From IMG/VR virus record IMGVR_UViG_3300021197_001489, positions 1 through 64,000 of that record: a stretch of 64,000 nucleotides of DNA. The stretch is one strand, 5' to 3'. Positions 5,984 to 63,500 of the stretch are shown one piece after another. The notes under the pieces are model-generated. The model was not told the DNA's origin and made no database searches. It worked only from the letters and a program-made list of their open reading frames with translations. The translations under genes were made by a program, and so were the position numbers. The stretch comes from a virus. How positions within the stretch are numbered: position 1 is the stretch's first letter; each line of letters opens with the position of its first letter.

Positions 5984-6796
5984 ATGAATAATCCATATAG
6001 TACACTGGGCGTGAGCAAAAATGCGACTGAGGCTGAACTGAAACAAGCCTATCGTAAACTTGCTATGGAAAATCATCCAGACAAAGGTGGAGATCAAAAT
6101 CGCTTCGCTGAGATTAGCAGTGCGTACGACACACTGAAGGACCCACAAAAACGTGCTGCATACGATCATTTCGGAACGGCAGATCCACAACAACAAAGAC
6201 CACATGGCTTTGGTGGGTTTCAGCAAAGTGGACAGCCGTTTGATCTTGACAGCATCTTTGAAATCTTTGGCCAACGCATGCACCCAAATGCCAGGCGCGG
6301 CCCTCCAGATGCCAGAGTAAGCATGGTAATTGATCTTGCTGATGCAGTTCGTGGCGGCAAACGTGCATTTGCAGTGCAAACACCCAATGGACAAACCAGT
6401 ATTGAAATAACCATACCCAAGGGCGTAGTTGACAACGAAAACATACGCTATCCAAAACTTGCGCCAGGTGGCATGGACTTGGTTGCAAACTTTAGAGTTC
6501 GGGCGCACCAGCATTGGCAGCGTGATGGACTTGACATGCACTGTGAGCGTCCAATAGATTTTTGGCAATTGATACTGGGAACTACACTGAGCATAACAGA
6601 CATCTTGGATCGCACATACGGATTGACCATACCGCCAACAACTAAACCGGGTGCAGTAATGAGACTGCGTAACAAAGGCATAGAACGCGAAGGACACAAC
6701 ACAGGTGATCTTTTTGTTAAGCTACGAGCAACTATGCCAGACAACATCAATGAAGAAATACTAAAAGTAATCCGCGAACACCAAGTCAATAAATAA
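5984..6796 (+). CDS. dnaJ: DnaJ/Hsp40 co-chaperone, type II
   Basis: 270 residues. The J domain occupies about residues 3-62, with the essential HPD triad (NHPDKGG). A Gly/Phe-rich linker follows (GFGGFQQSG). The C-terminal substrate-binding region is DnaJ-like (LADAVRGGKRAF, ITIPKGV, HQHWQRDGLDMH), but the four CxxCxGxG zinc repeats are absent, making this a type II J protein like CbpA. It should stimulate host DnaK. ClpA follows 21 bases downstream, so a proteostasis pair is likely. Confidence 0.9.
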   Translation: MNNPYSTLGVSKNATEAELKQAYRKLAMENHPDKGGDQNRFAEISSAYDTLKDPQKRAAYDHFGTADPQQQRPHGFGGFQQSGQPFDLDSIFEIFGQRMHPNARRGPPDARVSMVIDLADAVRGGKRAFAVQTPNGQTSIEITIPKGVVDNENIRYPKLAPGGMDLVANFRVRAHQHWQRDGLDMHCERPIDFWQLILGTTLSITDILDRTYGLTIPPTTKPGAVMRLRNKGIEREGHNTGDLFVKLRATMPDNINEEILKVIREHQVNK

Positions 6797-10363: not shown

Positions 10364-11665
10364 ATGTTAAAAAAGTTAGTCATCATACCAGGCGGGTTTC
10401 ACCCATTCCATGCAGGACATAAAGCATTATATGATGCTGCGGTAAGCCAGTTTCCAAGAGCAGACGTTTACATTGCTGCCACTGATGACCAAAACGCAAG
10501 ACCATTTCCGTTTAAACTGAAGCAGCAACTGGCACAGATTGCTGGCATCCCCAAGCATAGATTTATACAGGTTGGAAATCCATTCCAAGCCAAAGAAATT
10601 ACTCAACATTATGATCCAGATAGCACACAACTTATTTTTGTAAGATCAGATAAAGATTCAGGAGTGGCTCCACTGCCTGGCAGTGTAAAGAAAGACGGCA
10701 GCGCCGGATACTTACAGCCCCTGAATCGACGCAATCCAGAGCCAATGACAAAACACGGCTTTATGACATACTTGCCAACAATATCGTTTGGTCCAGGTAT
10801 GAGCAGCGCAACAGAGATTCGCGCCAAGTGGCCTACAATGAGCGACGACAGCAAAGCTGATCTTGTTAGCAGTTTGTATCCTGCAGCAAACGACAGTGTA
10901 GCATCCAAAGCAGTGGAAATTTTCAACACTGTGCTAGGTGAAGAAAAAGAAATGATCACTATGCCGCTGGGTATGTCAATAGAAGAGCCAAAGCAAGAAG
11001 CAAAGATTATCAAAACTGATGATTCAGTTAGCATACTACCAAGTGGCGGTATGGGCAGTTACGACGAAGCCACTCTCAAAAGCAACCTTGGCAGCAAACT
11101 ACGCACACTAGCGGATCTACTTGACAGCGGCGACTACGATAATCTTGAATACCACATCTATCAAAGCGGTGCAATGCAAGCAATGATTGAAGCACTTGGC
11201 CAGTACAAGCGTTTTAAAGATAAAAAAGGCAATCGTCCAATCAAGAAAAACGTTGAGATTGATATAAGCAACGAATCAGGTTTTTCACAAGAGTTACCAA
11301 CTATTGACCAAGAAATGAATGCTTATTTCAAAGACAAAAAAGATATGGGCGAGTCAGAAGATTACTTGCCAGAAGACGAGCTGATTGTTGAATATGTATT
11401 CCAAAGTCGTCCACTGAGAGTACTTGACAATATTGCAGGGCGCAAAGATCAAACACCATTTCCAATCAAGTTTGATGACGGTTCGCAAGTTATGGTATCT
11501 CCGGCAATGGCCAAGAAGTTTATGTCAATCTACCTAAGCAAAGATGTTGCTTTTCAAAAACAGATTGATCAAAAAATAAGCCAAAAGTCAGTGTTTGTTG
11601 ATGTGTTCAATAACTTGGTTAAAGGTCTACGCAGTACTGGCGTAACAGTTGGCGACCGCAGTTAA
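10364..11665 (+). CDS. Nucleotidylyltransferase-fold protein with C-terminal extension
   Basis: 433 residues. The N-terminal 180 residues have the features of the HxGH nucleotidylyltransferase superfamily (NMN, pantetheine-phosphate and related adenylyltransferases): PGGFHPFHAGH at about 8-18 and GMSSATEIR near 145, equivalent to the ISSTxxR nucleotide-binding motif. The remaining ~250 residues are of unknown type, with an acidic middle and a conserved-looking FPIKFDDGSQVMVSP stretch near the end. Late promoter and location argue for a virion-associated form of the enzyme. It could also make a dinucleotide such as NAD; the substrate cannot be read from the sequence. Confidence 0.7.
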   Translation: MLKKLVIIPGGFHPFHAGHKALYDAAVSQFPRADVYIAATDDQNARPFPFKLKQQLAQIAGIPKHRFIQVGNPFQAKEITQHYDPDSTQLIFVRSDKDSGVAPLPGSVKKDGSAGYLQPLNRRNPEPMTKHGFMTYLPTISFGPGMSSATEIRAKWPTMSDDSKADLVSSLYPAANDSVASKAVEIFNTVLGEEKEMITMPLGMSIEEPKQEAKIIKTDDSVSILPSGGMGSYDEATLKSNLGSKLRTLADLLDSGDYDNLEYHIYQSGAMQAMIEALGQYKRFKDKKGNRPIKKNVEIDISNESGFSQELPTIDQEMNAYFKDKKDMGESEDYLPEDELIVEYVFQSRPLRVLDNIAGRKDQTPFPIKFDDGSQVMVSPAMAKKFMSIYLSKDVAFQKQIDQKISQKSVFVDVFNNLVKGLRSTGVTVGDRS

Positions 11666-14418: not shown

Positions 14419-17232
14419 ATGAAAGCAACCTGGTTCGAAAATAAAGAATTAATAACACTGTACACTGATGAACGCTATTTTGGCGCAGATGTGCCTGACA
14501 GTTACGCAAAGCGTCCTAGCAAGCCTGTGCCAGTAGACAGTTTGTTTGGCTACGAGCCGTCAAGCAAGATGGATGACATACATCACAAAGATGAAGTATT
14601 ACAAATTGCATTAAAAATGAAATCAGGTACCTGGGACGGCGACCCTATCGTGGTTCGCAAAGATCCTAAAGGCTATCAAGTGTTGGACGGACATCATAGA
14701 ATGCATGCAGCTCGCAAAGCAGGCTTGGACACACTTGATGCAGTCATAGTTGGTCACGAAGATATAGAATATTCAGATGAAGTCAAAGAACAAAAGGTAA
14801 ATGAAGATACCGAAGAGTTCATGCACGGTGATTGTCCTATATTTGCAATAGCACTTAGTCGACTAAGCGGACTTCCACTACAAGCAATGCTTGATTATAG
14901 CGATGAATTAGATAAAACTGTTCTTGTACATGCTTTTGTAGGGTATAAAAACGGACAAGTAATCGATGCAAGTGGTGTTCGCAGTATCGAAAGCATAGAA
15001 GATGACTATCCAGTTGAAGATGAACCGTATGTTACAGACATAAGTGAAAAAGAATTAATTGCATTAGGTTATGATGGAAACTGTCCTACAATAGATATTG
15101 CAAAACAACATGCAGAAAAAGTATTATCAACATTAAACGAAGCATCGGGTTACATACCAACTGCCGCACAAGCAAACGATCCTCGTTTTAAAACTGCACT
15201 CACTGTAGATGTGCGTCCGGGTGAAGATCAACGCAATATTTCAAAACTGGGTCTTGATCTAAACAAAGAACTGGTAAAGAAGACATCGCCAAAACGCAAA
15301 AACAAAAACTCAGTTCACACACTGCAAAATCTAGGACTAGCTGAAAGTCTTGCACTTGATTACCAAATAATGAAAGAAGATGATCTATTCGAAGTAAACA
15401 TGAGCCCTGGCGCATTGCGTGACTGGGCAAAAAGTGACGAAGCAAAAGGCATTGTTGCAGGCTTTGAAATGGAACTTATTTTTGCAGATACTGAAGGGGC
15501 TGATGGTGATTATGATGAAGCAATACCAGACTGGGACAGAGATGAAGGTCATAGAGGGCGCAGTTTTGATGCTGTAATTGACTGGTTTGACGATGACGAA
15601 TATGGTTATGCTATCAGCAACGATAATCCAGAACGTACCCGTGAACAAATGGATGAAGACTTCTTTGAAAAGGCCGACGAATGGGTAAACTCAGAGTTTG
15701 AAGAAGTAGCTGCTGAAAAAGTTCGTGAGATCATGGACGACGATGTTTGGGATGCAACCAAAGAAGAACGTTACGATGATACAGCAAACGAACTGTTTGA
15801 AAAAAGCTATGAAGCATTGGATGAAGAAGAACAAGAACAAGTTAGAGATACAGCATTTGACTACTATCTAAACGAAGTTGATGAGGCAGTCAGTGATCAG
15901 TACAATAATGAATACTGGGAACAGGCCATGGAAGACTTCCGTGAAGATCGCTGGGGCGACTATACCTGGGTACAATATTACAACGACGCTGATATAACTT
16001 ACATGAGTGATATAGCCGAACGCTTTGGAATAGCCTGGCCATTTTTAACTGGTGGCGGCGGCCTTGGAAATCGCAGTTGGGAAGAAATTGAACAGTCATT
16101 GATCAACGAACCGCTTGCTGACACAGACTTTTCCATAACCATTGGCGCTGGCTATCATGGCACTGCACGGCGCGACAACTTGTTTATTCTAGAACCTGAC
16201 AGCAGCCTGGAATCAGATGATGGCAGTGACACTGGCGTAGAAATTGTATCGCCGCCAATGCCATTGGGACTGGCAACAACCACACTGGAAAACATGCTAA
16301 TTTGGGCCAAAGACCCAGACACTGATGCTTACACAAACGGCAGCACAGGCTTGCACATGGGCATGAGTGTTCCAGGAACAGAGAATGTTGACTATGTGAA
16401 ACTGGTATTGTTCTCAGGTGACAAGTATATACTGGAAAAATACGGACGATCGGCCAACAGTTACACACCAAGTGCGCTTGACCAGTTACAGCGCAGAGGT
16501 CAAATGTTTGTGCAAAATCCAGAGATACTGAATGATATACTGGCAAAGATGCACGACAAATTAGACGATGCCGCCGAAGGCCTTATTCGCGGCAGCACAG
16601 GTGACATGAAGTACACTTCAATGAGCATAAAGAAAGGCTACATTGAATTCCGTTCACCAGGCGGAGACTACTTGTCAATGGACATTCCTGATGTTATCAA
16701 CACCATGCTGAGATTTGCCAGAGCTATGAAGATTGCCAGTGATCCAAATGCATACAGACAAGAGTACCAAAAGAAACTGTACAAATTAACAACCGCAGGC
16801 GGCGAAGGCATTGTTAATAAATTTAATAAACTGTTTGCAGATTATCAGACAGGAACACTCAGTGCCGAAAGTCTAAAGCGGCAATGGGCTAATTTAGTAT
16901 CAGATGAGAATACTACTATATTAAACAAACTAGATGATAAGCCTGATACCAAACGTGTCGGACTTGCAAAGCAAATACTGCAACCCAAGCCAAGTGTGGG
17001 TGCAGACAATGCAGCAGACAGTCAGCAGGTGCAACAGCGAGTAGAACCAAAGAACTATAATTACATGATGCCAATGGTTGACTTGGCGGGCGACGTGCAA
17101 AACACAGCGACAGGCACTGTAACAGCAACCAGCGAAGACGAAGCCAAAAGGCTAATCAATACTGAAGTAAGAGCCCGGAATCCAGACTTGCAACCTCTGT
17201 GGAGCCAAAGTAGAATAGAACAAGGCAGATAA
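14419..17232 (+). CDS. Multidomain ParB-like/amidoligase-like probable virion protein
   Basis: 937 residues. About residues 55-115 form a ParB-like fold (GDPIVVRKDPKGYQVLDGHHR, then MHAARKAG). At about 135-155 GDCPIFAIALSRLSGLP looks like the start of a papain-like Cys domain. At about 240-260 ASGYIPTAAQANDPRF begins a short domain. About 335-800 resemble putative amidoligases (ATP-grasp-like COOH-NH2 ligases): GFEMELIF, GVEIVSPP, STGLHMGMS and YIEFRSPGG, with a long acidic insert at 370-520. LNE before ASGYIP and LFE before VNMSPG fit prohead-protease sites, so it may be cut into separate head proteins. Late promoter 7 bases upstream. Function inferred from motifs only. Confidence 0.65.
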   Translation: MKATWFENKELITLYTDERYFGADVPDSYAKRPSKPVPVDSLFGYEPSSKMDDIHHKDEVLQIALKMKSGTWDGDPIVVRKDPKGYQVLDGHHRMHAARKAGLDTLDAVIVGHEDIEYSDEVKEQKVNEDTEEFMHGDCPIFAIALSRLSGLPLQAMLDYSDELDKTVLVHAFVGYKNGQVIDASGVRSIESIEDDYPVEDEPYVTDISEKELIALGYDGNCPTIDIAKQHAEKVLSTLNEASGYIPTAAQANDPRFKTALTVDVRPGEDQRNISKLGLDLNKELVKKTSPKRKNKNSVHTLQNLGLAESLALDYQIMKEDDLFEVNMSPGALRDWAKSDEAKGIVAGFEMELIFADTEGADGDYDEAIPDWDRDEGHRGRSFDAVIDWFDDDEYGYAISNDNPERTREQMDEDFFEKADEWVNSEFEEVAAEKVREIMDDDVWDATKEERYDDTANELFEKSYEALDEEEQEQVRDTAFDYYLNEVDEAVSDQYNNEYWEQAMEDFREDRWGDYTWVQYYNDADITYMSDIAERFGIAWPFLTGGGGLGNRSWEEIEQSLINEPLADTDFSITIGAGYHGTARRDNLFILEPDSSLESDDGSDTGVEIVSPPMPLGLATTTLENMLIWAKDPDTDAYTNGSTGLHMGMSVPGTENVDYVKLVLFSGDKYILEKYGRSANSYTPSALDQLQRRGQMFVQNPEILNDILAKMHDKLDDAAEGLIRGSTGDMKYTSMSIKKGYIEFRSPGGDYLSMDIPDVINTMLRFARAMKIASDPNAYRQEYQKKLYKLTTAGGEGIVNKFNKLFADYQTGTLSAESLKRQWANLVSDENTTILNKLDDKPDTKRVGLAKQILQPKPSVGADNAADSQQVQQRVEPKNYNYMMPMVDLAGDVQNTATGTVTATSEDEAKRLINTEVRARNPDLQPLWSQSRIEQGR

Positions 17233-17236
17233 AAAC

Positions 17237-17524
17237 ATGAAACCACCCTTTACCAGGATTGAATTTGATTTGCATTTCCAATGGAAAAAGAACCCACCTG
17301 CATACAGACTGTATGTTAACGATGAAATGTTCACTGAGCGTACATACATTTGGAGCGGCACACAGTACCTATCTGAAATACTACAGCTAGAAGCGCCGCC
17401 AGGCAAATATATCATACGCATCGAAAACCTAGGAAAAGGCACATTTAAAATGCGTAATCTTACATGCACTGTAGGCAGTGCATTAATTTTAGACAATCAA
17501 ACATTTCAGGTATTAGCAGCATGA
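17237..17524 (+). CDS. Small beta-rich protein, unknown function
   Basis: 95 residues with alternating strand-like segments (IEFDLHFQWKK, YRLYVNDE, YIIRIENLGKGTF). No signal or membrane segment. It starts 4 bases after the preceding stop, and its end overlaps the next ATG (GCATGA). Likely a virion or assembly protein by position. Confidence 0.6.
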   Translation: MKPPFTRIEFDLHFQWKKNPPAYRLYVNDEMFTERTYIWSGTQYLSEILQLEAPPGKYIIRIENLGKGTFKMRNLTCTVGSALILDNQTFQVLAA

Positions 17525-17709
17525 AGATAAAAGAACTACTAGAAGATGCAAGTGCAGGATCAAGCGGTGCAGGTAGCATGGCTCCAGTTGAAGTTCCACT
17601 AGGTGCTGTGATCACTCGTGGTGCACCTGCTACAAAAAAACGCAAACGCAAGTATGCTAATGCAGTAGACACTGCTAAATACACTGAACTACAACAAACA
17701 AAGGATTAA
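17521..17709 (+). CDS. Small basic protein with capsid-targeting-like N-terminus
   Basis: 62 residues. The start MKIKELLE|DASAG resembles the T4 capsid-targeting sequence (MKTYQEFIAE, cut after Glu by the prohead protease): a short amphipathic start ending in LxE. The following SAGSSGAGSMAPVE is flexible, and the C-terminal half is basic (TKKRKRKYANA), as expected for a DNA-contacting internal head protein. ATGA overlap with the upstream gene sets the start. Function inferred. Confidence 0.6.
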   Translation: MKIKELLEDASAGSSGAGSMAPVEVPLGAVITRGAPATKKRKRKYANAVDTAKYTELQQTKD

Positions 17710-17713
17710 AAAA

Positions 17714-18070
17714 ATGGCAAGCGTCACACGGATACACCCAACTTCAACAACACCTAATTCATCAATTGCTCCAACACAATCAGTAGCATTTTTTACAGTC
17801 GATTATATCAATGCAATTAACGGATCTGCTGGTCCCGAAGGAGCTCAGGCTGCTGTGCTTCAAGCAATAACAAACATAGCAACTATCATACAGTCTGGAC
17901 CATTAGGCAACAGTAATACAGAACAAACATTTGCTCTTGACAGAAACTCTTTGCCGAATTCAACGGCAGTCGCAGCATTACAGGCTGCTATTAGAGCCCT
18001 TGGCACATATGATGGCGTTAACCTATCGTCTGCAACTGTTACTGAAAAAGACCTGTATATAGCGGTATAA
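17714..18070 (+). CDS. Unknown probable virion protein
   Basis: 118 residues, low in charge and rich in A, T, S and N; the N-terminal 25 residues are Pro/Ser/Thr-rich and flexible, the rest includes helical AAVLQAITNIATII. Four bases separate it from the previous gene. Its composition resembles phage decoration or neck-type proteins, but nothing specific is recognised. Confidence 0.55.
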   Translation: MASVTRIHPTSTTPNSSIAPTQSVAFFTVDYINAINGSAGPEGAQAAVLQAITNIATIIQSGPLGNSNTEQTFALDRNSLPNSTAVAALQAAIRALGTYDGVNLSSATVTEKDLYIAV

Positions 18071-18076
18071 TAAAAA

Positions 18077-18517
18077 ATGTTAGCTGATGATCTTAAAACA
18101 CTTCTTGCAACTGAATATGCATTTGTAATAAAAACACAAAACTTTCACTGGAACGTAGAAGGACCTGATTTTGCACAATACCACAACTTCTTTCAGGAAC
18201 TATACGAAGAAGTTTATGGCATCATTGATCAAACAGCAGAATACATTAGAACACTAGACGTATACGCACCAGGATCATTTGAAAGATTCACAGAGCTCAG
18301 TGTTATCATGGGGCAAACAAAAATCCCAAGAGCAATGCTGATGATTCAAGAATTACTTGATGATAACAGTGCAATACTGCAAATTTTAACACAGACTTTT
18401 CAATCAGCAACAGACGAAAACAACGAAGGCATTGCCAACTTTATTGCAGAACGTATGGATGCCCATAACAAGCATGCATGGATGTTGCGCAGTTTTCTCA
18501 AAGGAAGTAGAGCATAA
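18077..18517 (+). CDS. dps: Dps/ferritin-like protein
   Basis: 146 residues forming a four-helix bundle of Dps type. KTQNFHWNVEGPDF followed by HNFFQELYEEVYGIIDQTAE supplies the His, Asp and Glu of the inter-subunit ferroxidase site, and DAHNKHAWMLRSFL is the usual C-terminal helix. Dps oxidises iron, stores it and can coat DNA. In this phage the gene lies among probable head-internal proteins, so it may be packaged or protect DNA during infection; that is inference. One-base overlap with the next gene (TAATGAG). Confidence 0.85.
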   Translation: MLADDLKTLLATEYAFVIKTQNFHWNVEGPDFAQYHNFFQELYEEVYGIIDQTAEYIRTLDVYAPGSFERFTELSVIMGQTKIPRAMLMIQELLDDNSAILQILTQTFQSATDENNEGIANFIAERMDAHNKHAWMLRSFLKGSRA

Positions 18518-19482
18518 TGAGTATTGATCCACAAGAAGTAGCAAGTTTTGCCGACCTAGTTTCTAAAATGAATTCAATTGACAAAGGCGAAACGGTGAAG
18601 TCCACAAGCAATCATATTCAAGAAGGCATGAAGGCAAACAGCATGAATGCTATACTTGAGAATTTGTATCGAGACCAACCGTTTGAGAGTGCTAAAACTG
18701 TAAGCACAAAAGAATTTGAACCTGGCTATAAGCCAAAGCAACTTCCAGCAGACTTCAAAATGCCAAGTGTTGGACCAGTACTGGGCGGCGACGAAGAGAA
18801 AATCCCCACAAAAGGATACATGGTTGGCGATAGTATCGATGCTGATATGATCCGACAAATGGCTTCTGATGCTGACGAAGTTGAAATTGCTATCACAGAC
18901 AAAGGCGAATACGACGAAGAAGGTGCTGCAAGCAAAGATCAACTGGCACGAGCTGCTGATGCGGCACTAGAATTGCAAGGCATACTGGACGACGATGAGA
19001 ACTTACCTGAATGGGTGCAAAACAAAATTACAAAAGCATTAGACTATCTTGATACCAGCCGAGACTACATGAAGCAAGAGCTTGATGAGTACACTCCGCA
19101 TCCAGGTTCAGAAGAGTCATGGGATGGTGTAAGTCCTGACACTGATCAAACACTTAGTGGCCCAATCAACCCAGCGCCAAAAGCTGCAGAACTACCCGAA
19201 GACAAGGTTGGGATCAAACGCAGCATCATGGATTACGTTGGTGATATTGAAAGCAAAGCAGAAAGCAACAAACTGGTAGAGCCAGTGAAAACATACGAGC
19301 GTGACGGTAAAACTATCAAAATCTTTGGTACCGAAGATGATGGCTATAGAGTAAAAGTCAATGACAAAGACAGTAAAAAAACTTTTGGGAAATTAGAAAA
19401 TGCTGTTCGTGCTTGCGAAACGTTTCTCGAAAGACTAGAAGAACGTGCAAAATTAAAACATGATTATATGGATGAAAAATAA
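18517..19482 (+). CDS. Acidic multidomain probable virion protein
   Basis: 321 residues, strongly acidic in the middle (EEIAITDKGEYDEEG-like composition). LPEWVQNKITKALDYLDTSR near residue 165 is a helical block I have seen in other marine myovirus proteins. The C-terminal ~60 residues (KTIKIFGTEDDGYRVKV) look like a small beta domain. It contains several [LI]xE sites. It overlaps both neighbours by one base and is therefore cotranslated with Dps and the next gene. Role probably structural. Confidence 0.6.
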   Translation: MSIDPQEVASFADLVSKMNSIDKGETVKSTSNHIQEGMKANSMNAILENLYRDQPFESAKTVSTKEFEPGYKPKQLPADFKMPSVGPVLGGDEEKIPTKGYMVGDSIDADMIRQMASDADEVEIAITDKGEYDEEGAASKDQLARAADAALELQGILDDDENLPEWVQNKITKALDYLDTSRDYMKQELDEYTPHPGSEESWDGVSPDTDQTLSGPINPAPKAAELPEDKVGIKRSIMDYVGDIESKAESNKLVEPVKTYERDGKTIKIFGTEDDGYRVKVNDKDSKKTFGKLENAVRACETFLERLEERAKLKHDYMDEK

Positions 19483-20993
19483 TGAAATACTTTGACCTTT
19501 TTGAAAGCAGTTTTGGAGACAACTCACTGGCTGATCGCCAAATGAAAGCAGATATGGCAGCCAAGAAAGATGTCCCTTTTTCTGGTCCATACCGTAAAGC
19601 AGGCGAAAAACGCACTGACAAATACGGAAATGAAATAAAGAATGCAGCAAGGCATCTTGCTAGGAAAGCAGCCAGAGGCGAAGTAAATGAAGAAATGATG
19701 TATGGACAAAGTGATTTTGACATGATCAAAGTTGTGGGAGATTATGTGCTAGGTGCAACTGATCACAGTGATGAGGATCGTCCAGCATTTGATTACTACA
19801 TACTGAAAAAAGAAGGCGACAAGTACCGCAAAGTGAGAAATCTGGATAGCAGAGTAAACACTGGCCCAGGTACAAAGCATCGGATTGCAGTGCGTGACTT
19901 TATGGATCTTGTTGACACAATCAACGAAGCCGACAACTTTGAAGTTAATCCAGCACAAAAGTCACTGGCTGACATTGGACGCAAACTGATGGACAAAGCA
20001 GCAACAACCAAAGATGACAAACTGTCAACTGCACTAAGCCGTGTAGGCAATGAGCTAACTTCATATGGCACAATTTTTGGTGCCAGAAGCATTGAAGAAC
20101 TTGAAAAGAACACTGGCATTGCTAAAGCAAGCATCATGAAGATGCTGGACTATGGCAAGAAGATGGTTGAAAAAGAAGGCATTGCACAAATTGCTGACAA
20201 AGACGAAGTTGAAGAAGGCAAGATGGCAAACATCGCCATGGGTGCGCTGCTTGGACTTGGTGCTATGTGGAGTGCAGGTGAAGCAACCAGTGCTAAGAAT
20301 TCGCCTCTTGGTGATGCACTAAAAGCTGCTGCACAAGCAGGCGACGACATTGCAATGGATCACTATAAGAATCTTGACTTGTATGTTGATGGCAATGATC
20401 GCAGTATTATGAAAATGCTAAACGGCAAGTATCTAAAAAAAAAGATAGACGATGATGCACCTCCTGGTGCTAAAGCAGAACGCATGGTCAAGCATATTAA
20501 AAAAGGATATGCCAAGGACGGCTTAACTGATACTGAGCGTTCAATTGCTTATGCCACAGCATGGAAACATCATAACAGGAAAAATGAAGATGCTGAGCCA
20601 GCACTGGCTACAAACAAGCGTACTGAGCGTATCCTCAATTTGCTACGAGCAAAATCACCAACTGCCAAAAACGATCTTGAAGCATTGATACTGAGCTTTG
20701 ACAAAGGCCAGTTGCAAGATCGCATGGACATCAATCGTCTATATGGTGAAAACAACACTGAAGAACAAAACATTGCAAATCTACAGCGCGATGTTGAAGA
20801 GCTAAAACGTTTGGTGTCTACGCAGAATGAATCACTCACAGAAGCACAGTTTGATGAAGCTGCAGGCGAGAAAGATGCTTGCTATCACAAAGTAAAAAGC
20901 CGTTACAAAGTGTGGCCAAGTGCTTATGCGTCGGGTGCGCTAGTACAGTGTCGTAAAAAAGGGGCAGCCAACTGGGGAAACAGCAAAAAATGA
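19482..20993 (+). CDS. Large protein with capsid-targeting-like N-terminus and basic Cys domain
   Basis: 503 residues. MKYFDLFE|SSFGD fits a T4-like capsid-targeting sequence ending in LxE. Internal sites TINE|ADNF (about residue 147) and SLTE|AQFD (about 453) could also be cut. A helical domain with SLADIGRKLMDKA follows the first, then a Gly/Ala-rich hydrophobic segment (MGALLGLGAMWSAG). The last ~45 residues form a basic Cys domain (KDACYHKVKSRYKVWPSAYA), known from many phages and giant viruses but of unknown function. Probably an internal head protein or processed polyprotein. Confidence 0.65.
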   Translation: MKYFDLFESSFGDNSLADRQMKADMAAKKDVPFSGPYRKAGEKRTDKYGNEIKNAARHLARKAARGEVNEEMMYGQSDFDMIKVVGDYVLGATDHSDEDRPAFDYYILKKEGDKYRKVRNLDSRVNTGPGTKHRIAVRDFMDLVDTINEADNFEVNPAQKSLADIGRKLMDKAATTKDDKLSTALSRVGNELTSYGTIFGARSIEELEKNTGIAKASIMKMLDYGKKMVEKEGIAQIADKDEVEEGKMANIAMGALLGLGAMWSAGEATSAKNSPLGDALKAAAQAGDDIAMDHYKNLDLYVDGNDRSIMKMLNGKYLKKKIDDDAPPGAKAERMVKHIKKGYAKDGLTDTERSIAYATAWKHHNRKNEDAEPALATNKRTERILNLLRAKSPTAKNDLEALILSFDKGQLQDRMDINRLYGENNTEEQNIANLQRDVEELKRLVSTQNESLTEAQFDEAAGEKDACYHKVKSRYKVWPSAYASGALVQCRKKGAANWGNSKK

Positions 20994-21403
20994 GAAATTT
21001 AATCAGTATTATTGAAGCAATTGGAAAAAATTGTCCACTACCAACGCAAGATTTAGAACTAAACACCAAAAATCGTGACGCAAGTATCAAAGCAAAGCAC
21101 ATTCAATATGGTCCTCTTAATGTTGGCGTACCTGGTGATTACTGGATAGACATTGCTGACTACTGGAATACCAGCGAAGAGGCTGCTAAAGCAAGCAACT
21201 GTTCAGTTTGTGCAGCGTTTGATATATCACCAAGGATGCTAGACTGTATGCCCGGCGAGCTTGAAGACAAAGACGGTTATCTGGGCTATTGCTGGATGCA
21301 CAAGTTCAAATGTCACAGTGCTAGAAGTTGTAGAACATGGGCTGGCGGCGGACCAATTGAAACTGACGAGACAAGTTATAGTTGGGACAAAGAGTCAGCA
21401 TGA
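20990..21403 (+). CDS. Cys/His-rich protein with capsid-targeting-like N-terminus
   Basis: 137 residues. The N-terminus MRNLISIIE|AIGK ends in IxE like a capsid-targeting sequence. The body has about nine cysteines and several histidines: NCPLP, NCSVCAAF, LDCMPG, LGYCWMHKFKCHSARSC. This could bind zinc or an iron-sulfur cluster. The ATG overlaps the stop of the previous gene (ATGAG) and its own stop overlaps the next ATG, keeping the five-gene block cotranslated. Function unknown. Confidence 0.6.
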   Translation: MRNLISIIEAIGKNCPLPTQDLELNTKNRDASIKAKHIQYGPLNVGVPGDYWIDIADYWNTSEEAAKASNCSVCAAFDISPRMLDCMPGELEDKDGYLGYCWMHKFKCHSARSCRTWAGGGPIETDETSYSWDKESA

Positions 21404-21786
21404 GAATACTAGAAGTACTCACAGAAAAATGCTGGAAGGGCTACCGAAAGAAGGGCATGAAAACCATGTTCGGCAAGCGTGTTCCTAACTGTGTTAAAAA
21501 AGAAGACGTGCAACTTGGATCAGATGGTGAACTGGTATTTGCTGAACATCTAGACGAAGATCTCAAAAAATGGTTTAAAGAAAAATGGGTGCGCTTTGGT
21601 CCTGACGGCAAGATCCGCGGTGATTGTGCTAGAGGCAGTGACTCAGAAGGCAAACCAAAGTGTTTGCCACAGAAGAAAGCGCAAGCACTGGGCAAGAAAG
21701 GCCGCAAAACTGCTGCCAACAGAAAGCGCAAGCAGGATCCCAAGAAGAACAGACGTGGCAAAGCAAAGAACGTAGCAACAAAATGA
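21400..21786 (+). CDS. Basic protein with capsid-targeting-like N-terminus
   Basis: 128 residues. MRILEVLTE|KCWKG ends in LxE, as in capsid-targeting sequences. KKGMKTMFGKRVPNC follows, then a helical acidic patch, then a highly basic C-terminus (KWVRFGPDGKIRGDC, KPKCLPQKKAQALGKKGRK) common in marine phage proteins. The strong positive charge suits packaging with DNA. The start at 21400 is supported by an ATGA overlap; an upstream in-frame ATG at 21382 lies inside the previous gene. Confidence 0.65.
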   Translation: MRILEVLTEKCWKGYRKKGMKTMFGKRVPNCVKKEDVQLGSDGELVFAEHLDEDLKKWFKEKWVRFGPDGKIRGDCARGSDSEGKPKCLPQKKAQALGKKGRKTAANRKRKQDPKKNRRGKAKNVATK

Positions 21787-21992
21787 GAGCTACAGAATTT
21801 GTCAATGAAAACTTTGCTGATGGTAAGAAAAAAGGCAAAAGCAGACCTGGCAGAGTAAAGAAGTCAGGTGCTAGTTGTAAAGGATCTGTTACTAGCCTTA
21901 GAGCAAAGGCTAAAAAAGCAAGCGGTGAACGTGCTAGAATGTATCACTGGTGTGCGAACATGAAAAGTGGTCGCAAGAAATCCAAGTCATAA
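21783..21992 (+). CDS. Small basic protein with capsid-targeting-like N-terminus
   Basis: 69 residues. MRATEFVNE|NFADG has a VxE variant of the cut site. The rest is very basic and carries ASCKGSVTSLRAKAKKASGE and MYHWCANMKSGRK, a small Cys module often found in phage proteins. ATGA overlap with the preceding gene sets the start. Likely DNA-associated; function unknown. Confidence 0.6.
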   Translation: MRATEFVNENFADGKKKGKSRPGRVKKSGASCKGSVTSLRAKAKKASGERARMYHWCANMKSGRKKSKS

Positions 21993-22000
21993 TTACTTGT

Positions 22001-22174
22001 ATGAGCCAAGTATCCTATACACCAACAAAATGTAAGAATTGCGGCGATAATAGCCACTGCGGCACAGCTAACTGGCGTGAAGAACGAGACTATGACGGTG
22101 GTTATCACTTAATCAAAGCGTGTGATGCATGTAGATGTGATCTTTGTGTTGTGCCCAATTATCAAGATGGCTGA
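22001..22174 (+). CDS. Small zinc-ribbon-like protein
   Basis: 57 residues from MSQVSYTPTKC. Cysteine pairs CKNCGDNSHCG and CDACRCDLC could bind one or two zinc ions. The gene starts 8 bases after the previous stop and overlaps the following glycosyltransferase (ATGGCTGA). Possibly a regulatory or adaptor protein; not recognised further. Confidence 0.55.
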   Translation: MSQVSYTPTKCKNCGDNSHCGTANWREERDYDGGYHLIKACDACRCDLCVVPNYQDG

Positions 22175-55495: not shown

Positions 55496-56830
55496 ATGTT
55501 TGAATTACTTTCTGCTTTTGTTGTAGGATTAGGTTTAGGTGTTGTGTCTGGAATTGTTCCAGGTCTCAATGTGTTTGTAAGTATCTTACTGGTATTTCCA
55601 CTGTTGATAACTTGGGAACCAACCAGCATTATGTTTATGTATATCACATTGGCCAGTGTGCATCAGTACTTTGGCAGTGTAAGTGCCACTGTGTTTGCTA
55701 TACCTGGCACCAGCACCAGTTTACCTGCACTACACGAAGGGCATGGTATGTTTCAAAGTGGCAGAGGCAGCGAAGCAATTATGACAGCCGCAATTGGCAG
55801 TTTCTTTGCTAGTTTTTTTGCTATTGTTCTAATACATTTCATGTTGCCTTATCTCAGCATTTTCTATCAAATTTTTAACACACACATACAGGCATTGCTG
55901 TTAACAGTTGCCGCAGTAACAATCATAGTGTTCGCTGACAACAAAATTTGGATTAGTCTATTGCTTTGGATAGTAGGAAATACACTGGCCATGGTAGGCC
56001 TACACGAATACTATGGCGGCATTACATTTATGACTTTTGGAATTCCGGCACTGTACACAGGTATTGATCTATTACCTGTGATGATTTCACTGTATGTGGT
56101 TCCTGTGTTTTTGAGAGCAAGTAAGTCAGGCGGCCGTATTGAATTTAAAGGTGTAAGCATGGGAGGCTATGTTGATGCCGCGCGCCGCATGTACAAACAA
56201 ATGAAAATGACACTTTTGCGTAGCAGTATTATTGGAGCATTAGTTGGCTTCATACCTGGCATCAGTTGGGGGTTGAGTACAATGCTTGCTTACAACTCCG
56301 AACTGGGTATACGCAAACGTAAAAAACTATACAATACACAGGGAGATGCAAACTGTTTGGTGGCTGCAGAAAGCAGTAACAACGCAGGTGTGTACACCAG
56401 TATGGTGCCTATGCTGTTTGCAGGTATACCTATCACTGCAAGTACTGCACTCATATACAACATATTCATGTTTAGAGGCATCAACCCAACGCTGCCATTC
56501 TTTGAAAGTTTATACGAAATAACCTTAGTTGGGTTTGGCATAAGCAGTGTTATAGGATTGCTTATAGCAGGCAAATATGTTAATTTTCTCAAGTTTTTAA
56601 GTGGACTGGACATACGCAAATTTTACACTGTGATGTTTTTGCTGCTGGTTGTGATTTGCTACTTTGTGGCAGAACAATACTATGCAGGATTTGACAACAT
56701 GATGATGTTGGTTTGTCTGTTACCTTTTGGGTACCTACTTAGAAATTACAACACAATGCCATTGATATATGGTTTTGTGTTGCAAGATATTTTTATAGAA
56801 AGTGTTTATAGACTAACATTTTTCTATTAA
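55496..56830 (+). CDS. tctA: TctA-family tripartite tricarboxylate transporter permease
   Basis: 444 residues with about ten to twelve membrane segments. VVSGIVPGLNVFVSILLVFP, FAIPGTSTSLPALHEGHGM, and GALVGFIPGISWGLST are typical TctA motifs; they form the two repeats around the substrate path. It would import carboxylates (citrate-like or others) across the host inner membrane with a TctC binding protein, encoded next. No TctB small subunit is seen. GGA precedes the ATG. Confidence 0.85.
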   Translation: MFELLSAFVVGLGLGVVSGIVPGLNVFVSILLVFPLLITWEPTSIMFMYITLASVHQYFGSVSATVFAIPGTSTSLPALHEGHGMFQSGRGSEAIMTAAIGSFFASFFAIVLIHFMLPYLSIFYQIFNTHIQALLLTVAAVTIIVFADNKIWISLLLWIVGNTLAMVGLHEYYGGITFMTFGIPALYTGIDLLPVMISLYVVPVFLRASKSGGRIEFKGVSMGGYVDAARRMYKQMKMTLLRSSIIGALVGFIPGISWGLSTMLAYNSELGIRKRKKLYNTQGDANCLVAAESSNNAGVYTSMVPMLFAGIPITASTALIYNIFMFRGINPTLPFFESLYEITLVGFGISSVIGLLIAGKYVNFLKFLSGLDIRKFYTVMFLLLVVICYFVAEQYYAGFDNMMMLVCLLPFGYLLRNYNTMPLIYGFVLQDIFIESVYRLTFFY

Positions 56831-56857
56831 AAAAACCTTTTTTTATTAAAAAGGATG

Positions 56858-56886
56858 TTGACAACAAGCTGTTTTGTTGTTATTAT
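56858..56886 (+). promoter_or_regulatory. Sigma70-type promoter for the TctC-like gene
   Basis: TTGACA at 56858-56863, 17-base spacer, TATTAT at 56881-56886. An A/T-rich inverted repeat (CCTTTTT/AAAAAGG, 56836-56853) precedes it and might end the tctA transcript. AAAGGAG precedes the ATG at 56913. Confidence 0.75.
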
Positions 56887-56912
56887 ACTGAACAAACTTT
56901 AAAGGAGTTATA

Positions 56913-57812
56913 ATGTTTGATATTAGAAAAACTGTTTCAGTGGCAGTATTAGCACTGACAATGATGATTGGCGCAAACGGTACATCAGTTGCCGGCACAG
57001 ACATCACCACCCTTAAAGGTCCTGGTGATGTTAATGTAATGCTGATGTATCGCGCAGGCGGTTCATATGGACGTATGAGTCAGCAGGTGATTGCACCAAA
57101 TCTTGGTGATGATTTTAAAGAAATCAAAAACATTCGTGGTTGTGCAAAGATGGCAGATTTTGTCAAAAACACAGACGAAAAAATGTTTGGTTTGTGGGAT
57201 TGGTTCTCAACCAATGAGCCACTAGCAGACGGCAGCAAGAATCCTTGCTTCCTTGAGCAAGAAAACATTGTTAGTATTAGCCATGCATTTCCATATCGTG
57301 CATGTTTCGTAGCTGGTGCCAATGGCCGCAGTCTTGATGACTTCGTAAATGGCAAAGGTATTAAGGTTGGCATCCTGGCCAATGGTGTATACAAAGCACA
57401 GGCAACTCAGGTAATACATAGCATCAACCCTGATGCAAAAATCATTCCTTATAGCAGTAGTAAAAAATACATTCCTGGATTAAAGTCTGGCGAAGTAGAC
57501 TATCTTTACTCAGCACAAATGCGTGATTGGATGACATGTGTTGCTTCAACAGATGCAAAAGAAACACAGTTTACACCCTTTGGTACACTGTCAGACAACT
57601 TTCTTGCAGACAAAAACACCTATCCAGCATTTGCAGCATTTAATATGGACATGGACGAAGCATTTGCATTCGCGCAAAAAATTCAACAAAGTCCAGAAAT
57701 GGTCAAGTTCCTTGCTGGTGTCGGACACGTTATGCCGACACAGGTGACAATGCCACGTCGTGAGCAGCTGGCCTTTATGAATGAATGGTACGCAACCATT
57801 CAGGAAAAATAA
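56913..57812 (+). CDS. TctC/Bug-like periplasmic solute-binding protein
   Basis: 299 residues with a signal peptide (VAVLALTMMIGANGTSVAG). LMYRAGGSYGRMSQQVIAPNL resembles the PxGGxxDxxAR opening of TctC-type binding proteins, and a later VGILANGVYKAQATQVI and SGEVDYLYSAQMRDW fit the two-lobed fold. Encoded right after TctA, it should present a carboxylate to it. The sequence is divergent, so ligand and even partner are inferences. Confidence 0.65.
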   Translation: MFDIRKTVSVAVLALTMMIGANGTSVAGTDITTLKGPGDVNVMLMYRAGGSYGRMSQQVIAPNLGDDFKEIKNIRGCAKMADFVKNTDEKMFGLWDWFSTNEPLADGSKNPCFLEQENIVSISHAFPYRACFVAGANGRSLDDFVNGKGIKVGILANGVYKAQATQVIHSINPDAKIIPYSSSKKYIPGLKSGEVDYLYSAQMRDWMTCVASTDAKETQFTPFGTLSDNFLADKNTYPAFAAFNMDMDEAFAFAQKIQQSPEMVKFLAGVGHVMPTQVTMPRREQLAFMNEWYATIQEK

Positions 57813-61921: not shown

Positions 61922-62410
61922 ATGCCAACATTTGTATACATGACTGCATGCGATGGATGTGGACATTGCGTCGACATTTGTCCAAGTGACATCATGCACA
62001 TTGATCCAGTAACAAGACGAGCAGTAAACATAGAACCAAACTTTTGCTGGGAGTGCTATTCATGCGTAAAAGCATGTCCACAAAATGCAATTGACGACAG
62101 AGGCTACAGTGACTTTGCGCCTATGAATCACAAGGTCAGAGTATTACGAGAACCAGAAAAAGGCGTTATCAGTTGGCGACTCAAATTCAGAGACGGCAGA
62201 GAAAAACACTTTGAATCACCTATTCGCACAACACCTTGGGGCAGTATACAATGCGCCAGTGAGTACGACGTGCCAGATGCAACACTAAATGACTCACAGC
62301 AACTAGCACATGAACCAGAATACTTACTGGCAGATGGCGGGTTGCGCATGATTAGTAAGAATAAATTTGTTAAATACGAGTACACAGGAGACACACATGC
62401 CACCACGTAA
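61922..62410 (+). CDS. aprB: Adenylylsulfate reductase beta subunit (AprB)-like ferredoxin
   Basis: 162 residues. Two 4Fe-4S sites: Cys10, 13, 16 and 20 (CDGCGHCVDIC) and Cys42, 45, 48 and 52 (CWECYSCVKAC). The rest follows AprB, not plain ferredoxin: PQNAIDDRGYSDFAPM, VISWRLKFRDG and IRTTPWGSIQ. AprB carries electrons to AprA, which interconverts APS and sulfite. No aprA is in the window. The sequence looks SAR11-like. Own promoter; overlaps the oxygenase gene by 14 bases. Confidence 0.88.
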   Translation: MPTFVYMTACDGCGHCVDICPSDIMHIDPVTRRAVNIEPNFCWECYSCVKACPQNAIDDRGYSDFAPMNHKVRVLREPEKGVISWRLKFRDGREKHFESPIRTTPWGSIQCASEYDVPDATLNDSQQLAHEPEYLLADGGLRMISKNKFVKYEYTGDTHATT

Positions 62411-63500
62411 TCATAATAACTGGACAGCAACACCCAAGGTTGAATACATCAGCAGCGAATGCTACAATAACTTTGAAGTGTTTGAACAAGAGCAAGAGCA
62501 CATCTTTTCAAAAGTGTGGGTACCAATGTGCCACAAGTCAGAGCTTTCGGAAGCAGGTAGGTTTAGAACAACCAAGATTGCTGGTCAAAATGTTATAGCA
62601 ATTAACAATGGCGACACTATTAAAACATACTTAAATCCTGGAAAGTTCAGTACTCCAGCTGGATCAATGACACGAGTTCAATTCTTAATGGATGACTATA
62701 CTCCATTGCATACTGAAGTCAAACATGGTGGAATGGTATGGACAACGTTGGATTCTAATCCTACACAAAGCGTAGATGAGTGGACAGCAGGTGCATTTGA
62801 TTGTATTGCTGATGCCATTGATACCGAAGAGATGGAAGTATTCCATTACCATAAAGCTGTTATAGATACCAATTATAAACTGTGGCATGATACCAACAGT
62901 GAATTCTATCACGACTTCATGCATTATTTTAATAGAGTGAGTGGCTTCAATGATGAATATTTCGCTAGAAAAAATATCCCTTTTGATAATGGTCACGTTA
63001 ATGTGTCTAGCTTTACTGTTAACTATGAAGAGTATGACGGATTTGAAGATCGCGGGGACTTATCTTTTCCCAATTTGCCGCCCAACCAGTGGTACATGGT
63101 TGACCTCTTCCCAGGATTCAATTTTAACCTCCGCGGGAGTGCATATCGTTCAGACTCGGTGACTCCACTAGGTCCTAACAAAGTTCTTATCGAATTTAGA
63201 GGTTATGGATTACTCAATGATACTCCTGAAGAAAGACAAACACGCATTAAGCACCACAATAGTATATGGGGACCTTTCGGCAGAAACTTGCACGAAGACC
63301 TTATTGGCGTGGCTGGTCAAGGCACTACAATGCGTGAAGGTACAGAATCAAGAAACATACTGCACGGCAGACATGAAAATTCTACAATACATGATGAAGT
63401 TGGAATGAGACATTATTATGAAGCATGGGGTAACATGTTGGGTGTAAGTCCAATGAATCCACTACAAGGACAACTACAAGATGTTAGTAAGGCTGCGTAA
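62397..63500 (+). CDS. Rieske-type oxygenase alpha-subunit relative lacking the Rieske site
   Basis: 367 residues from the ATG at 62397 (AGGAG upstream). The catalytic domain is recognisable: NYKLWHDTNSEFYHDFMH gives the two His, and NLHEDLIGVAGQ the Asp of the mononuclear iron site. The N-terminal domain has the RFRTTKIAGQNVIAI entry strand but no CxH...CxxH pairs, so it cannot hold a 2Fe-2S cluster. It may take electrons from the AprB-like ferredoxin encoded in front. Substrate unknown. Confidence 0.7.
   Translation: MPPRNHNNWTATPKVEYISSECYNNFEVFEQEQEHIFSKVWVPMCHKSELSEAGRFRTTKIAGQNVIAINNGDTIKTYLNPGKFSTPAGSMTRVQFLMDDYTPLHTEVKHGGMVWTTLDSNPTQSVDEWTAGAFDCIADAIDTEEMEVFHYHKAVIDTNYKLWHDTNSEFYHDFMHYFNRVSGFNDEYFARKNIPFDNGHVNVSSFTVNYEEYDGFEDRGDLSFPNLPPNQWYMVDLFPGFNFNLRGSAYRSDSVTPLGPNKVLIEFRGYGLLNDTPEERQTRIKHHNSIWGPFGRNLHEDLIGVAGQGTTMREGTESRNILHGRHENSTIHDEVGMRHYYEAWGNMLGVSPMNPLQGQLQDVSKAA

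Follow-up and report, generated by a model that had tools for sequence, protein, structure and literature searches.

The virus record IMGVR_UViG_3300021197_001489 is 316,012 bases long; its first 64 kb, hereafter the window, contain a tightly packed operon of ten genes (14419-21992; genes are named by their first base), which follow one another as listed in Table 1 with junctions of -4, -1, +4 or +6 bases. Five of them, 17521, 19482, 20990, 21400 and 21783, encode proteins that start with M[KR] and a short stretch ending in hydrophobic-x-Glu, just as written in a first-pass annotation made from the letters alone, in which these stretches were read as leaders that direct proteins into the phage head. 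The leader end had been equated with the [LI]xE site of the T4 protease gp21, the specificity of which is L/I-x-E (PMC9026906). This fits four leaders, in which P3 (the hydrophobic position) is L, L, I and L, but not that of 21783, which has a V. The description of 21400 and 21783 as strikingly basic is borne out by predicted isoelectric points (pI) of 10.3 and 11.2 for the mature proteins, and most of the five do contain Cys, with 17521 as the only exception. The genes had also been said to be cotranslated and to sit together. Coupling is evident, since the start codons of 17521, 20990, 21400 and 21783 lie within the preceding stop (ATGA, -4) and 19482 overlaps its neighbor by 1 base. Contiguity, however, holds only for the last four leader genes, which are mutually adjacent; three leaderless genes lie between these and 17521, and the operon already begins at 14419.

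Table 1. Features of the operon at 14419-21992 (a slash marks the predicted cut; aa, amino acids; ORF, open reading frame; HMM, hidden Markov model)
Feature	Start	End	Strand	Remarks
Late-promoter-like ATAAATA core	14405	14411	+	7 bases 5' of gene 14419
937-aa protein, first operon gene, no leader	14419	17232	+	Weak PF02195 and PF12224; kept in relatives
95-aa conserved protein, no leader	17237	17524	+	Relatives at syntenic loci
Predicted leader MKIKELLE (MKIKELLE/DAS)	17521	17544	+	
Small basic cargo protein (proposed)	17521	17709	+	Mature pI 9.8; no Cys
118-aa protein, no leader	17714	18070	+	
Dps/ferritin-like protein, no leader	18077	18517	+	PF00210 E = 7e-23; phrog_3636 E = 1.5e-29
321-aa acidic protein (net -27), no N-terminal leader	18517	19482	+	Segment common to cyanophage proteins
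Predicted leader MKYFDLFE (MKYFDLFE/SSF)	19482	19505	+	Identical leader in related locus L020
503-aa multi-segment cargo protein (proposed)	19482	20993	+	C-terminal module D; 2 Cys; phrog_727 E = 5e-24 and others
Module D (KDACYHKVKSRYKVWPSAYASGALVQCRKKGAANWGNSKK)	20871	20990	+	HMM matches in 88 ORFs; also in S-CREM2 gp160
Predicted leader MRNLISIIE (MRNLISIIE/AIG)	20990	21016	+	Alignment and relatives
7-Cys protein	20990	21403	+	7/7 Cys invariant across 17 aligned sequences
Predicted leader MRILEVLTE (MRILEVLTE/KCW)	21400	21426	+	
Basic cargo protein (proposed)	21400	21786	+	Modules A (21427-21501) and B (21583-21783); 4 Cys
Predicted leader MRATEFVNE (MRATEFVNE/NFA)	21783	21809	+	
Basic cargo protein (proposed)	21783	21992	+	Leader, then module C only; 2 Cys

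We assessed how often such N-termini occur in the window with a T4-based motif, ^M[KR].{3,5}[LIVFM].E, which asks for an MK/MR start and a hydrophobic-x-Glu whose Glu is residue 8-10. Six of the 79 window genes match it, 16 of the 79 starting with MK/MR, while ~1 match is expected from internal positions (binomial 2.4e-4). Five of these six are inside the ten-gene operon (hypergeometric 6.3e-5); the 79 genes were compiled manually from ORF output and both enrichment figures could shift slightly. The sixth match, 28363, is an apparently unrelated gene.

The first-pass annotation had proposed a search for a gp21-type protease gene, and there is one outside the window, at 141740-142366 of the same record (PF03420, Peptidase_S77, E = 1.7e-27, match at 141797). 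The record also encodes gp23 (PF07068 at 143646, E = 4.7e-98), and gp20- and gp22-like genes, recognized by eye and position, adjoin the two. This gp23 is nearest to those of Vibrio phage 2.275.O and PA5oct-type jumbo phages (67% identical) and has a candidate cut site, HLAE/N, the counterpart of which in Vibrio phage 2.275.O is LME/S.

Next, we surveyed 2.2 Mb of related virus DNA, at loci fetched via 20990 and via the protein modules A-B and C described below. All three of the module-fetched contigs tested that exceed 200 kb have gp21 and gp23. At related loci the operon order is kept, leader-bearing genes being gained or lost between relatives. Counterparts of the 17521 leader read MKIRELLE, MRFKEIME, MRAHEIME, MKIKEILE and MKFKEFME, and that of 21400 keeps the pattern Mxxx[ED][VIFL][ILV]xE in most of 22 aligned sequences, with positions 2-4 variable. 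The leader is also found on unrelated bodies. Where an ATG start fits M[KR]xx[ED][FILV][ILV]x, E follows in 31 body clusters, and every other residue follows in at most five. Without clustering, the final E is present in 83 of 152 starts and P3 is I/L/V in 82 of 96; since the loci were chosen via leader-bearing families, the A-B and C counts are inflated, the number of clusters hardly so. A cytidylyltransferase-like protein, too, stands directly behind a leader. The cytidylyltransferase/NMNAT-like gene of the window itself (10364-11665, by eye) is leaderless, and its cyanophage and several of its contig relatives are leader-bearing. At another locus (L097:11235), a leader, MKPLELLKE/WIVKCLNCGCDSHCG..., precedes a body that looks like the product of a Cys-rich gene of the window, 22001-22174, which itself has no leader.

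As for the mature parts, 21400, 21783 and the C-terminal end of 19482 are built of short, mostly basic modules, A to D, with conserved Cys. Module C has at least 593 viral-contig relatives, and each of the 63 distinct contexts that were counted has a Glu before it. When it lies inside long proteins, with no Met nearby, Glu is directly before it in 40 of 40 distinct contexts, in which P3 is hydrophobic in 75%, versus 15% at P2 and P4 and 5% at P5. Judged by sequence, this is the signature of gp21 at sites where the N-terminus plays no part. The bodies 5' of module C include 5'-nucleotidase (4 of 10 scanned), a cytidylyltransferase-like protein (below the Pfam cut-off) and Cu/Zn superoxide dismutase (SOD; E = 3e-44). 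The latter belongs to a single long protein (L115:8459-10693) that also contains module C and a stretch which looks ParB-like by eye, with candidate gp21 sites between the parts. In cyanophages, some of the modules A-D are fused in one protein, often located between terminase genes.

Relatives of these proteins have been detected in virions. In cyanophage S-CREM2, gp160, which contains modules B, A and D (independent E-values 1e-14, 1e-13 and 3e-29), was found in CsCl-purified particles with seven unique peptides (PMC10665884, Table 3). The S-CREM2 genes that fit M..[FYL]..F[LIFM].E, a pattern tuned after matches had been seen, encode a SAM hydrolase, gp13, an APH/ChoK-like kinase, gp136 and a cytidylyltransferase, and all five are among the 52 of 219 proteins listed there as virion proteins (p = 6.5e-4). 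Widening the T4 rule by chemistry gives six matches, five of which are on that list (p = 0.003). Cytidylyltransferases are likewise reported from virions of S-SM1 and S-SZBM1 (PMC3037559, PMC9146016), with leaders MKKFSAFLNE/A and MRFRQFIIE/A, respectively. The S-CREM2 authors were unable to exclude that such enzymes were carried over from the lysate (PMC10665884); a packaging leader is a simpler account of their presence. S-SZBM1_190, guessed from its map position to be a module protein, is not one. S-SZBM1_194 (L175:43253-45376) is a long repetitive protein with ITYREFIAE/G in mid-chain, nearly the T4 capsid targeting sequence (CTS). S-CREM2 gp12 (L176:7704-10313), a Cas9-like nuclease listed in virions, has LRFASFMAE/A near its start, so the real start, or the leader, may be downstream of the annotated start.

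Together, these findings strengthen the capsid-targeting reading: gp21 and gp23 are encoded, the leader occurs on unrelated bodies, module C has internal sites and relatives are present in virions. We consider it probable that a T4-like jumbo phage carries the five proteins as head cargo, targeted by their leaders, cut by gp21, retained with the DNA and probably ejected. For this phage we infer targeting, cleavage and injection from the sequences, the gene order, the protease and the site and leader statistics, and from virion detection in relatives. Late in infection, the coupled operon would make precursors, each headed by a leader of 8-9 residues with hydrophobic-x-Glu at its end. This leader would bind the prohead core and bring the protein inside, where the gp21-type protease would cut after the Glu and release the mature protein, which would remain with the packaged DNA and probably be ejected with it. 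Related phages would use the same signal on swappable bodies (small Cys-containing basic modules, NMNAT/cytidylyltransferase, 5'-nucleotidase, Cu/Zn SOD) and would also join modules into longer polyproteins with gp21-type sites in between.

Several observations weigh against this. Leaderless genes are interspersed in the operon, 17714, 18077 and 18517 separating 17521 from 19482, and 10 of the 16 MK/MR-starting window genes lack the motif. The leaders end at residue 8 or 9 and so misfit positions 4/7/8/10 of the T4 CTS when counted from the N-terminus. The residue-specific S-CREM2 pattern was tuned with its matches already in view, and broad N-terminal motifs are not significantly enriched among the virion proteins listed for that phage (p = 0.11 and 0.06). 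No gp21 was found in 15 shorter contigs, which are fragments, so this is not decisive. Finally, leaderless relatives of 20990 are present in gp21-encoding contigs (L217, L218 and L236). A control that paired absence of the leader with absence of gp21 thereby failed, and the 20990 leader is a lineage-specific addition at best.

The best rival for the role of the basic modules is that packaged proteins act only inside the head, basic Cys modules neutralizing and compacting DNA and redox proteins protecting it, with no delivery to the host. The very basic character of 21400 and 21783, the Dps gene in the operon and the fusion of Cu/Zn SOD to module C in L115 all speak for it, nor does it conflict with the packaging part of our explanation. 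We nevertheless find it less likely, because cytidylyltransferase, SAM hydrolase and kinase serve small-molecule or protein metabolism and would be hard to use in a head. Less probable still is that the leaders bring in core or scaffold material that mostly leaves the head after cutting, as the pieces of T4 gp22 and gp67 do, none of it acting on the host. Polyproteins with many [LIVFM]xE sites do resemble core proteins cut to pieces, and most T4 core fragments exit the head (PMC9026906), but module proteins and leader-bearing enzymes are listed in mature virions of relatives, and the bodies include folded enzymes (SOD, NMNAT, 5'-nucleotidase). It is highly improbable that the N-terminal pattern merely reflects composition or common descent and plays no part in targeting: acidic and hydrophobic residues often occur close to protein starts, the apparently unrelated 28363 fits too and many census loci were fetched via leader-bearing families, but the final E is 6-fold above the next residue over unrelated bodies, the signature recurs internally before module C, the motif genes cluster in one operon, and a small sample of two marine phages not of the T4 type has no such N-termini.

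Head cargo of this kind is best compared with the internal proteins IPI-IPIII of T4 and their CTS. Shared are a short propeptide at the N-terminus with a hydrophobic-x-Glu end, mature parts that are unrelated, a gp21-type protease and T4-type head genes; the leaders here are 8-9 residues long rather than 10, and there are many more bodies, including enzymes and polyproteins. Aligned from the cut site, the five leaders do fit the T4 positions, and the T4 N-termini MKTYQEFIAE, MAKINELLRE and MELITELFDE share the leader pattern. The last two, of gp24 (shell) and Alt (ADP-ribosyltransferase), are very similar to leaders like MKINELLAE and MRLLHLFEE, although their bodies are unrelated to the cargo bodies here. 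Among the plus-strand genes of the window, none has an N-terminus of the form M..[FYL]..F[LIFM].E, and the Pfam and PHROGs matches of window proteins include no family of T4 IP or Alt mature parts. Because the positional CTS rule and mature-part homology both came out negative, we do not class the five as T4 internal proteins. T4 gp61.1 (L180:18966-19130), MKTFKEFIKE/DMVAGD...KKKK, has a CTS-type leader and a small basic body, a layout like that of 17521 by eye. The cyanophage virion proteins (S-CREM2 gp6, gp13, gp14, gp136 and gp154; S-SM1 and S-SZBM1 cytidylyltransferase) also have T4-like leaders but of a different flavor, MKxFxxFLxE, and S-CREM2 gp160, which has modules A, B and D in common with the window proteins, lacks a clear leader at its own N-terminus. 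In phiKZ/SPN3US-type phages, many head proteins, ejection proteins among them, are cut after Glu by a gp21-related protease; these phages and their motif are distant, and the likeness does not come from sequence comparison. The parts consulted of the cyanophage virion proteomics papers (PMC10665884, PMC3037559, PMC9146016) do not mention targeting sequences. Within the open-access library searched (subscription papers being outside our scope), "capsid targeting sequence" and "cyanophage" occur together only in the T4 review PMC9026906, in which "cyanophage" occurs once, in a reference title. On the whole, the findings support and widen the first-pass reading, with a T4-like logic of targeting and cleavage, working like the CTS system, applied to a large set of swappable cargo.

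Some of the operon proteins can be characterized further. The 503-aa protein 19482 is matched by 150 phage records at 80-95% identity, chiefly across its C-terminal segment; as a query it retrieved no relatives from viral contigs, its peptide patterns having fallen in variable parts. Distant relatives of 20990 (33-41% identity) are named high-potential iron-sulfur protein (HiPIP) in GenBank, and the candidate ligand spacing C71-C74-C86-C101 resembles that of HiPIP; the Pfam HIPIP profile matches 0 of 17 family members. A tblastn search of phage records with 21783 gave no match at E 1e-5, searches of PDB sequences gave no match or chance matches only, and the AlphaFold models of 20990 and 21400 (pLDDT, the predicted local distance difference test, of 45.8 and 61.2) were below fold-search quality. 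Among the leaderless genes, the product of 14419 matches ParB-N (PF02195, E = 1.1e-4) and an amidoligase-like family (PF12224, E = 0.033), both below the curated cut-off, while 18077 passes the Pfam Ferritin cut-off (81.6 versus 24.5 bits). The ATAAATA core preceding the operon is one of eight window copies, at 6789, 9754, 10352, 14405, 35430, 46429, 55355 and 60248, most of them shortly 5' of a listed gene. All eight are on the plus (coding) strand, and their total is lower than the shuffle expectation of 16 over both strands. Elsewhere in the window we noted, by eye, a phosphate-permease-like gene (29-985), tricarboxylate-transporter-like genes (55496-57812) and ferredoxin/Rieske-oxygenase-like genes (61922-63500).

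More broadly, and at somewhat under even chances in our estimate, large marine T4-like phages may share a modular head-cargo system in which the leader and the cleavable C-terminal module C are both portable and the bodies can be swapped, and through which dozens of proteins would be loaded and delivered. Just as tentatively, we propose that redox and NAD/nucleotide enzymes could be part of this cargo, which would be produced either as small proteins, one by one, or as polyproteins for gp21 to cut in the head. The leader would then be a readable address tag with which to predict the head-loaded proteins of very abundant marine phages, proteins that perhaps enter a new host ahead of all gene expression. 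Such a tag would offer a mechanism for puzzling finds of virion proteomics, such as cytidylyltransferase, SAM hydrolase and kinase, and a function class for the widespread hypothetical families phrog_727, 3477 and 38880, which contain modules B and/or D and carry no assigned function or packaging signal.

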